Source: Methanococcoides sp. (lineage in GTDB: Archaea; Halobacteriota; Methanosarcinia; Methanosarcinales; Methanosarcinaceae). Taken from it: DNA of 64,000 nt. The stretch covers positions 1 through 64,000 of the forward strand of contig JAIORD010000028.1 in NCBI GenBank assembly GCA_021108275.1. Direction: 5' to 3'. Under the pieces are notes generated by a model. It was given only the letters and a program-made list of their open reading frames with translations. It searched no databases and was not told the origin of the DNA. Below, piece after piece: positions 8,322-52,058 of this stretch. A program made the translations under genes and the position numbers. How positions within the stretch are numbered: the first letter of the stretch is position 1; every line of letters begins with the position of its first letter.

Positions 8322-9862
8322 AAGGTTCTGACTCTTTAGTTGAACGAAATCAGAATATTGATCTATTGAGGTTTGCCACTGCAGGAAGTGTGGATGATGG
8401 TAAATCAACCCTTATTGGGAGATTATTACACGATTCAAAATCAATATTCGAGGATCAACTGGATCTAATTAAGACATTCTCGAAAACCCATAGGAACCAG
8501 GATATTGATTATTCCCTGGTAACTGATGGCCTTAAATCAGAAAGGGAACAGGGAATTACAATTGATGTCGCATACAGGTTTTTTTCGACTCCAAAAAGAC
8601 GCTTTATTATTACCGATACCCCCGGGCATGAGCAATATACAAGAAATATGGCTACAGGTGCATCAAATGCATCCCTTGCCCTGATCCTTATTGATGCGCG
8701 GAACGGAGTTGTAACACAGACAAAACGGCACTCGTTTATCTCGTCTCTTCTTGGTATAAGGAACTTTGTAGTTGCAGTCAATAAAATGGACCTTGTTGAT
8801 TATTCAGAAGAAGTGTATGAAAATATTGTAAGCGAGTTCAATGACTTTGCTGATAAGTTATCAGATGAATCAATTTACTACATACCCATAAGTGCCCTCA
8901 AAGGTGACAATGTCATTGAACGAAGTGCCAATATGCCCTGGTTCCAGGGGTCTACACTGCTTGATTATCTAGAGAACGTAAGTGTATCCGGTGGTCGCAA
9001 CCTGACCGATTTCCGGTTCCCAGTCCAGTATGTTAACTGGGGAGGTGATGATTTCAGGGGTTATTGTGGCACAATAGCTTCAGGTGTTATACACAAAGGG
9101 GACAAGGTAAGAGTTCTTCCTTCGGGAAAAACGAGTGAAATTTCAAGGATCGTCACGTATGACGGGGACCTTGATTATGCCTTTGCTCCTATGGCAGTAA
9201 CCCTTTGCCTTGAGGATGACATTGACATAAGCCGCGGTGATATGATTGCGAAGGTCGATGACATTCCTGTAATTGCCGGAAGCCTGGAGGCAAATGTAGT
9301 ATGGATGGATAGCGCTCCCATGGAGATTGGGAAGGACTATTTGATCAAGCATACTACCAGCACGGTGAAAGGGAATTTCTCAGAAGTACTTCATGAGTTT
9401 GATCCTGAAGACATCAGCATGAAACCTTCGGAGTTCTTGAGCTTAAATGAGATCGGAAAAGTCAAGGTTGAATTAAAGACCCCAATATTTGCCGACATTT
9501 ATTCCGAGAACAAGATCACGGGCTCATTTATTGTAATTGATCCCCACACCAATCAGACAGCTGCTGCCGGCATGATCTCAAAATACAATCAGGTATCTCC
9601 CGACAAAGCATGCAAGGCTGTAAAGGCGAAGGTTATAAGGTATCCGGGAGGCAAAAGGGAAGAAGCACAGGCCAATTATGATCGCCTTTCCATGCAGGGT
9701 ACGCATTGTATCTACGTGGATGATGATCTGCTGCTTGAAACCCTTTGCAAGCGAATCCCGGTTGACAGTGAGCAATATTCCGACACAATTGATGATCTGT
9801 GCAAGATCGTTACAAGATCAGGTGTGTCTGTGGTTTTGTGCTCTGATCATTTGAGCAGTTAA
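8318..9862 (+). CDS. cysN: Sulfate adenylyltransferase large (GTPase) subunit
   Basis: An elongation-factor-like GTPase that powers CysD. G1 is [18 protein letters not shown] (near 22-39), G3 is [12 protein letters not shown], and G4 is VNKMD, followed by EF-Tu-like beta domains. At 514 residues it has no fused APS kinase domain at the C-terminus. The start is TTG at 8318, overlapping the cysD stop (TTGA), with GGAGGG in the cysD tail as ribosome-binding site. With cysD and cysH it completes the sulfate-to-sulfite branch. Confidence 0.94.
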
Positions 9863-13884: not shown

Positions 13885-14528
13885 ATGGGCAATGAGGGTG
13901 AACTTCCTGAAAGTGAAGGATTTGAAGAGCTGATAAGATATACCCTCCCTGGCTATATCCTAGGTCTTATTGCAGGTATTTTTCTTGATATGCAGGGTTA
14001 TCAAAGAAGTCCTATTGGACAATGGCTGGTCAGGACCTTGTCAGGACCTTGTCAGGTGAAGGTGAAAGCATACTGGAAGGTATCTATTCAATTCGCCAAC
14101 GCTTTCTTGGTGGTGCGAGTACAATGGCGGAAGCCTATGGATGGGGCAAGCTATTTGGGTTGGCAGTCCCATGGATAATTGATCTCGCCAGCCGTCTTGC
14201 AGGTGTGAATGTATATGGGGTCGAGGGTTTCTATATTCCTTACTTCTATGCACTTAGTGACCAGATGGGGGCAAATATTTCCGGGATGCTTTTTTTGAGG
14301 AGAAAAGAAGGTACCTGGCTTGGAGCGTTCAATAAATATATGCATCATCCGGTGATGGTCGCAAGTCTGGCAATAATAGTCATCGTGCCTTTTGGTCTTT
14401 TATTATTGCGCATATATGGTTTCAGCCCAACTACCCAAACATTTACTGCCCTTGAGACCATTGTGGCAAATCTATGCTGGATCCCGCCAGTTGTGGGTTG
14501 GTATGTGCAGAGAAAAAGAGGGATATGA
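13885..14528 (+). pseudogene. Membrane protein gene disrupted by an 11-bp tandem duplication
   Basis: The first part runs from ATG 13885 through a membrane segment ([20 protein letters not shown]) to [10 protein letters not shown], then leaves frame. The rest of the protein ([20 protein letters not shown] through two or more membrane helices to VQRKRGI) continues in another frame to 14528. Removing one copy of the 11-bp duplication at 14030-14051 restores a single frame of about 210 residues, reading [21 protein letters not shown] do not recognise the family; it looks like a small archaeal integral membrane protein. Two separate genes are unlikely, because the second piece has no ribosome-binding site and begins inside the repeat. 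It is 9 bp upstream of the TPR gene. Confidence 0.75.
14030..14051. repeat. 11-bp tandem duplication
   Basis: TCAGGACCTTG occurs twice back to back (14030-14040 and 14041-14051) and is followed by a partial third TCAGG. Because 11 is not a multiple of 3, it shifts the reading frame by exactly the offset seen between the two halves of the flanking gene. This is the signature of replication slippage. Confidence 0.9.
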
Positions 14529-14537
14529 GGATATTTC

Positions 14538-15236
14538 ATGGCAAAAGATGATGTAAATAGTGCTGTCGAGAGGTACATTTCCTCCGGCAGATCTGAAAAG
14601 GATGTTGAACGGAAAGAACATTATTTCAAGATGGCTCTGCAAATACAGCCTAAGAATATCCGCGCATTGAACAACATGGGTCTGTTGTTGCAACAGAAAG
14701 GTGAGTTTCGGGAAGCTATCAGATACTATGAGATCATACTTGATCTCGGGGTAGTGACAAAACCTTCTCCTATATACTACAATATTGCAGTATGCCTTAA
14801 GCGACTTGGTAATCTGGAAGGTGCAAAGACGTACATTAACAGGGCACTGGCAAAAAAACCAGATGAAGAAATTTTCATGGAATTAAAGGAAGAAATACTC
14901 GACCTTCTAAAAGGCACTCCTTTGGCGGTCCTGCCGCATACTACTACTAAAGCTTCGGATATAGGTGCTCCTTATGGTGAATGGGACCCTCCGGCAATAG
15001 CGACCTTGGCAAGCCATTTATATTATTCCGGGTGGAACGACTACAAATATCATCGTGGTCTGGGTGAGACCGATCTTAATGAAAAGATCGTTCGTGACAA
15101 GCTTGTAAACCGTATATATTGTTGTCAAACCTGTAAGTTCAATTCCGGGGGAACATGTCGCAAAAAAGGTAAAGTTGGCAAAAAGGTCCTTCTTGATTCG
15201 ATCTGTAAACAGTTTTCCCCGCGAAAGACAGATTGA
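14538..15236 (+). CDS. TPR-repeat protein with C-terminal Cys cluster
   Basis: A 232-residue protein. TPR-type helical repeats at about 24-125 (ALQIQPKNIRALNNMGLLLQ, then EAIRYYEIILDLG, IYYNIAVCLKRLGNLEGAK) suggest a protein-protein scaffold. After residue 140 a different region follows, with YGEWDPPAIATLASHLYYSG and four or more Cys near the end (YCCQTCK, GTCRKKG, SICKQF) that could bind Zn or an Fe-S cluster. Soluble, with no signal peptide. The start follows GAGGATATTTC. It lies 9 bp after the broken membrane gene and was probably co-transcribed with it. No specific function is recognised. Confidence 0.8.
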   Translation: MAKDDVNSAVERYISSGRSEKDVERKEHYFKMALQIQPKNIRALNNMGLLLQQKGEFREAIRYYEIILDLGVVTKPSPIYYNIAVCLKRLGNLEGAKTYINRALAKKPDEEIFMELKEEILDLLKGTPLAVLPHTTTKASDIGAPYGEWDPPAIATLASHLYYSGWNDYKYHRGLGETDLNEKIVRDKLVNRIYCCQTCKFNSGGTCRKKGKVGKKVLLDSICKQFSPRKTD

Positions 15237-51272: not shown

Positions 51273-52058
51273 ATGGTTCACAATGATCTGGTCATGGAGA
51301 TCCCCTGGGATGTTGAAGCTACACTTCTGTCAAGACCTAACAGGTTTCTTGGCATTGTGGAGCTGGACCTATCCACTTTTCCATCATCCGATCCCAATCT
51401 CAATTCCTCTTCTTTCTCTTCTTCTGATGTAATTCAGGAGAAAGTTCATATTCATGATCCCGGCAGGCTTGAAGACCTCCTTTTTCCCGGGAACAAGCTC
51501 CTTTTAAGAAAAGCTACCAATCCCAAGCGTAAAACAGGATGGGATGTGATCGCTGCAAAGGCTGATGATGGGTGGATATTGATAAATTCGGCCTTCCATC
51601 GCAAAATAGCTGAATGGGCGATAGCAAATTAGGTATGCTCCTGTTTTGAAAATGTGCTTGAGGTCATACCCGAACAGAAATTCGGGGATAGCCGTCTGGA
51701 TTTTCTGCTGAAGAAAAAGGATACTGAGCTATGGGTGGAAGTAAAAGGGTGCACACTTATCTATGGTAGTACTGCCACTTTTCCTGATGCTCCCACTACA
51801 AGGGGGAAAAGGCATGTTGGGGAGTTGAAAAAAGCATTGGAAAGCGGGTCAGAGGCACTTATAATGATCCTCGTTCTCCGAAAAGATGCTTCATGTTTCA
51901 AAGCGAACGAGAGTATTGATCCTGATTTTGCAGAGGCTTTCAAGGATGCTGTCAATGCCGGGGTGCAGGTATGTCCTTTAGTGTTCAGCTATGAAGGTAA
52001 GGATTTATTCTATATGGGAAAGGTTCCTTTATGCACTGAAGAATACAATTCCATTTAA
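51273..52058 (+). CDS. sfsA: SfsA-family protein with an internal in-frame UAG codon
   Basis: SfsA (DUF123-type) proteins bind nucleic acid and have a PD-(D/E)XK-like fold. The frame starts at ATG 51273 (HIHDPGRLEDLLFPGNKLLL, KTGWDVIAAKADDGWILINS). It meets TAG at 51630-51632 (codon 120) after EWAIAN and continues in the same frame with VCSCFENVLEVIPEQKFGDS, RLDFLLKKK, ELWVEVKGCTL, FPDAPTTRGKRHVGEL to TAA 52056-52058. Both halves are needed for the family. In Methanosarcinaceae UAG can encode pyrrolysine, so the protein may be read through to 261 residues. A nonsense mutation is the alternative. All other genes read here end in TAA or TGA. Confidence 0.75.

Follow-up and report, generated by a model that had tools for sequence, protein, structure and literature searches.

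Archaea that carry the pyl genes use UAG as a sense codon and as a stop codon at once, with no required cis element, and in M. acetivorans an introduced UAG is read through at 20–30% (PMC2933860, PMC8211752). The occurrence of pyrrolysine (Pyl) outside the methylamine methyltransferases, a UAG that is globally both sense and stop, and neutral drift of codons to UAG have all been published (PMC2933860, PMC8211752, PMC3639795). Pyl is found in Thg1 and in transposases of some Methanosarcinales (PMC8211752), the Thg1 residue being thought dispensable (PMC2933860), and further genes have been predicted to have acquired UAG by neutral drift, in a report whose main text does not contain sfsA (PMC3639795).

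The sfsA gene described here lies in a stretch of 64,000 nucleotides of Methanococcoides DNA (hereafter, the window). Like the genes for MtmB, MtbB and MttB, it has an in-frame UAG, here predicted to be read as Pyl, in an archaeon of the Methanosarcinaceae with pylTSBCD; however, in those methyltransferases Pyl is an active-site residue with a conserved UAG, whereas the UAG of sfsA is private to one genome and occupies a variable site. As with Thg1 and the transposases, the UAG is within an ordinary gene, albeit a different one, whose decoding is predicted from its sequence. With the drift genes of PMC3639795 it would share a single mutation to UAG, tolerated in that the protein is not obstructed by Pyl; unlike in those genes, the presumed ancestral codon is visible in sister species. 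Given the earlier reports of Pyl outside the methyltransferases and of drift to UAG, sfsA adds one case to a known form of decoding. The original prediction of a UAG read as Pyl outside the methyltransferases is supported by the genomic tests below, although the novelty is less than was thought.

A 2025 paper in Science reportedly describes an archaeal code in which all TAG codons specify Pyl, with Methanococcoides said to be among the organisms studied. The genome analysed here is like such a code in its rare TAG ends and in having TAG within several unrelated genes; it is unlike it in that pylB and cofG still look TAG-terminated.

The sfsA gene and its internal TAG

The sfsA frame starts at ATG 51273 on the forward strand and comprises 119 codons followed by TAG as codon 120. 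The same frame then continues for 141 further open codons up to a TAA at 52056–52058, and the gene has no frameshift and no further stop besides the TAG. The genome has no other sfsA match. Its features in the window are as follows.

51273..52058, +, sfsA with the internal TAG read through (261 aa)
51327..51584, +, SfsA N-terminal OB domain, residues 19–104, 5' of the TAG (Pfam PF17746, SfsA_N)
51594..51995, +, SfsA nuclease (RE) domain, residues 108–241, with the TAG inside it (Pfam PF03749)
51630..51632, +, in-frame TAG, codon 120 of sfsA; its counterpart is AAG or AAA (Lys) in the closest relatives and GAG in six further genomes of the genus
51654..52058, +, 134-codon ORF beginning at a GTG inside sfsA, the sole restart frame past the TAG in the ORF-finder list

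The original prediction had described an SfsA frame broken by this TAG with a complete second half in frame, and the family models agree: the read-through protein scores 192.9 bits against NCBIfam TIGR00230 (sfsA; cut-off of 126.45 bits), and the Pfam domains extend across the TAG. The protein has the make-up of the SfsA family, with an OB domain and a PD-(D/E)XK-like nuclease domain (both predicted from sequence), and its fold matches have 4dav/4da2 and 4dap as the nearest solved structures. Residues D143, E156 and K158, which by inference are catalytic, are invariant in their alignment columns and all lie in the nuclease domain, 3' of the TAG. Since that domain spans the TAG and the three residues follow it, a 119-residue product would be without the catalytic part. 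If read through, codon 120 is flanked as IAN-Pyl-VCSCFENVLEVIPEQK. The structure model of SfsA is of low confidence over its N-terminal half (mean pLDDT of 61.8), and it was used solely for a predicted helix (residues 106–118) that would stop just short of residue 120.

The two halves could alternatively be two proteins, an OB half and a nuclease half, the second initiating at GTG 51654, where the 134-codon ORF does begin. In the alignment, however, this GTG is an ordinary Val/Ile codon, a restart there would lose the beginning of the nuclease domain (residue 108 onwards), and the sequence shows no obvious ribosome-binding site for it. The ORF is therefore unlikely to be a separate gene, and a split sfsA is very improbable.

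Pyrrolysine machinery and the use of TAG as a stop

The genome encodes tRNA-Pyl (anticodon CTA), pylS, pylB, pylC, pylD and mtbA as consecutive genes, with all five of the proteins PylS, PylB, PylC, PylD and MtbA scoring above the NCBIfam cut-offs; the pyl genes that the original prediction had proposed to look for are therefore present, as a full pylTSBCD cluster. Two mtmB genes have the known in-frame TAG and mtbB has one TAG. The genome thus combines tRNA-Pyl (CUA) and PylS, the PylB, PylC and PylD proteins and methylamine methyltransferase genes with TAG, which together mark a Pyl-decoding organism, and sfsA has the mark of a gene for a Pyl-containing protein, namely homologous coding sequence on both sides of an in-frame UAG. 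A tandem pair of CobD-like genes is situated next to pylT (L016 1400–5230); the farther of the two consists of two overlapping ORFs and looks frameshifted.

Of the 61 ORF-called genes in the window, 37 have a TGA end, 23 a TAA end and one, sfsA, a TAG end, so that all 60 others lack a TAG end, as first noticed from the window. In the sampled DNA, 18.4% of stop triplets are TAG, and with that share none in 60 is not a matter of chance (0.816^60, approximately 5e-6). This avoidance holds beyond the window: among 685 ORF-called genes in 867 kb (stretches covering about a third of the genome), the ends are TGA in 369, TAA in 303 and TAG in 13 (1.9%), and TAG ends account for 10 of 582 (1.7%) in the relative G002, 1.6% in G016 and 1.2% in G028 (the latter two values each rest on a 200 kb sample in which two genes end in TAG).

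Frames closed by TAG also tend to remain open past it. The median run-on is 88 codons for the 13 TAG frames, versus 12 after TAA and 10 after TGA, and run-ons of at least 40 codons follow 10 of the 13 TAG frames versus 108 of the 672 others (Fisher p of 3e-6). By codon score, eight of the ten long TAG run-ons look coding, and among the TAG-ended frames with a long run-on are those of mtbB, sfsA, four histidine kinases and a GmrSD-like protein. When the genome was aligned to 800 kb of G002, the clean in-frame stops within conserved genes were TAG in four cases, TAA in none and TGA in one, this last being the junction of two genes at 14526 described below. Taken by homology, TAG appears to be read through in several unrelated genes in addition to mtmB and mtbB.

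The codon differs from that of the relatives by a single base, as it would if a sequencing or assembly error had altered a real AAG at position 120. Like errors to TAA or TGA number none in approximately 60,600 aligned codons, however, and the assembly (2.67 Mb in 60 contigs) is 99.4% complete with 1.69% contamination, so that an error deserves very little credence.

UAG may still often terminate, given the apparent TAG ends of pylB and cofG, whose 42-codon run-ons have negative codon scores, and the usual motifs of aRF1, which retains NIKS, YxCxxxF and GGQ. An altered release factor was considered and rejected, in view of these motifs and of the one copy above cut-off in each genome. A PYLIS-like hairpin 3' of the sfsA TAG was likewise rejected, the structure there being no stronger than in shuffled sequences (z of −0.31), in agreement with the published lack of a required cis element. 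The TGA at 14526 of the window was rejected as a control nonsense mutation, because it is the boundary of two genes. At this place (window 14022–15236) the TGA separates two genes in the same frame; G002 is without the TGA, and its upstream frame is broken.

Codon 120 among relatives

Among named organisms, the nearest sfsA genes are those of Methanococcoides (isolate SMBSF15, M. seepicolus LLY and M. vulcani). The comparison with relatives suggested in the original prediction revealed a sense codon at position 120 in all nine other genomes of the genus with sfsA: Lys in the three closest (AAG in G007 and G002, AAA in G008) and GAG (Glu) in the remaining six. The TAG is thus private to this genome, and one base change, AAG to TAG, accounts for it. 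Family-wide, the residue aligned to codon 120 is K, E, N, G, R, Y, Q or D, making this a variable site that is tolerant of many residues, as judged from the alignment. Conservation of UAG among orthologues, the mark of a needed Pyl, is not seen in sfsA, and no needed Pyl is claimed.

A TAG confined to one genome is also what a recent nonsense mutation would leave, with UAG mostly terminating, SfsA reduced to the OB domain and sfsA a young pseudogene. Such loss has precedent in the family: sfsA is absent in some genomes and, among the 52 family genomes with sfsA matches, is interrupted by TAA or TGA in two (G073 and G035, one each), which indicates that the gene is sometimes truly broken and can be lost. 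Here, however, the frame beyond the TAG has acquired neither a frameshift nor another stop, and dN/dS between this sfsA and its three nearest relatives is 0.086–0.165 3' of the TAG and 0.119–0.212 5' of it. By this comparison, purifying selection is equal after and before the TAG and decay is not evident, with low power against a very recent mutation; a TAG private to one genome in the genus may have arisen too late to leave a trace of selection. The presence of the pyl cluster, the run-on of TAG in many other genes and the lack of any clean TAA nonsense or true TGA nonsense in the compared genes also argue against a pseudogene, which we consider improbable.

In G029, a genome of another genus that has pylS, sfsA (L129) is likewise interrupted by a single in-frame TAG, which occupies another variable site (KKAGG-TAG-KRKTGW). 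That a TAG arose twice in sfsA of pyl-bearing genera would be expected if Pyl at residue 120 were retained for an added function of SfsA. The two sites differ, however, both are variable and no other member of the genus has the TAG; two unrelated sites are better fitted by tolerated drift than by a role for Pyl in SfsA, and a selected Pyl is hardly credible here.

With a probability of roughly 0.84, the UAG of sfsA is translated as Pyl often enough to give full-length SfsA, the change being near-neutral. In this reading, a single substitution in this lineage of Methanococcoides would have turned an AAG Lys codon into TAG. Pyl would be made by PylB, PylC and PylD and charged onto tRNA-Pyl (CUA) by PylS, and its insertion at UAG by the ribosome would compete with the release factor, a local signal being unnecessary. 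The outcome would be a complete SfsA in which residue 120 is Pyl, perhaps accompanied by a share of protein truncated after 119 residues. The gene anatomy, the sense codons of the relatives, the purifying selection past the TAG, the complete pyl genes and the scarcity of TAG stops are observed; that sfsA is decoded in this way, how efficiently, and that its product is active are inferred. As codon 120 is variable, the Lys-to-Pyl change is probably drift that the protein tolerates, without a gain of function.

Other genes with an internal TAG

Several other genes of this genome (G000) have an in-frame TAG. An HD-domain gene (G000:C6 8772–9293, −) has a TAG at 9137 in this genome alone, with Gln in G002, and in a gene for a GmrSD-like protein (G000:C1 38027–40279, −) the AlbA domain runs across the TAG. 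Hydantoinase A and B (G000:C1 146730–150347) share a frame with TAG as the sole separator, which may be either a read-through fusion or an ordinary gene end. A nucleotide-kinase ORF (G000:C5 17244–17570) ends early at a TAG and looks frameshifted. Two other genes of G002 have an in-frame TAG (G002:C1 134240–135532, − and 87532, −), one of which is aligned with Glu in the genome of the window.

In every one of the 11 Methanococcoides genomes, a family of histidine kinases has a TAG at a fixed position of the HATPase domain (FTPENGCI-TAG-IN).

G000:C1 50946–52883, histidine kinase with HATPase TAG
G000:C2 75288–77543, histidine kinase with HATPase TAG
G000:C7 15622–17985, histidine kinase with HATPase TAG
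G000:C25 275–985, histidine kinase with HATPase TAG
L142–L148, L151–L155, L157 and L158, loci of such kinases in the relatives

The best 20 kinase matches have one TAG each and are distributed over all 11 genomes. In the 15 that could be aligned, the TAG falls in the same column of the ATPase domain, with third-position identity between copies down to 0.50, and the closest matches without a TAG are 59–66% identical. A second type of histidine kinase (G000:C4 23960–25747; L159, L160) has its TAG two columns earlier in the same strand, at a site (FTPEGG-TAG-VMV) common to three genomes. A cluster of histidine kinases with UAG was reported for three other archaea in a 2013 survey (PMC3639795), perhaps at the position of the HATPase TAG.

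The kinase family with the HATPase TAG merits more attention than sfsA. A wider proposal, to be held tentatively and in our estimation unlikely, is that UAG is a working sense codon proteome-wide in the genus, that Pyl is selectively kept in some genes and that these kinases are complete only with Pyl. If true, kinase signalling would be coupled to Pyl or methylamine status, and sfsA would lie at the neutral extreme of this process. In these archaea, TAG-bearing genes such as sfsA will be truncated by standard gene callers. As read here, sfsA would offer a clean example from nature of an ordinary gene in which a sense codon has drifted to UAG, and its sister species with the presumed ancestral Lys would make the cost of ambiguous decoding measurable.
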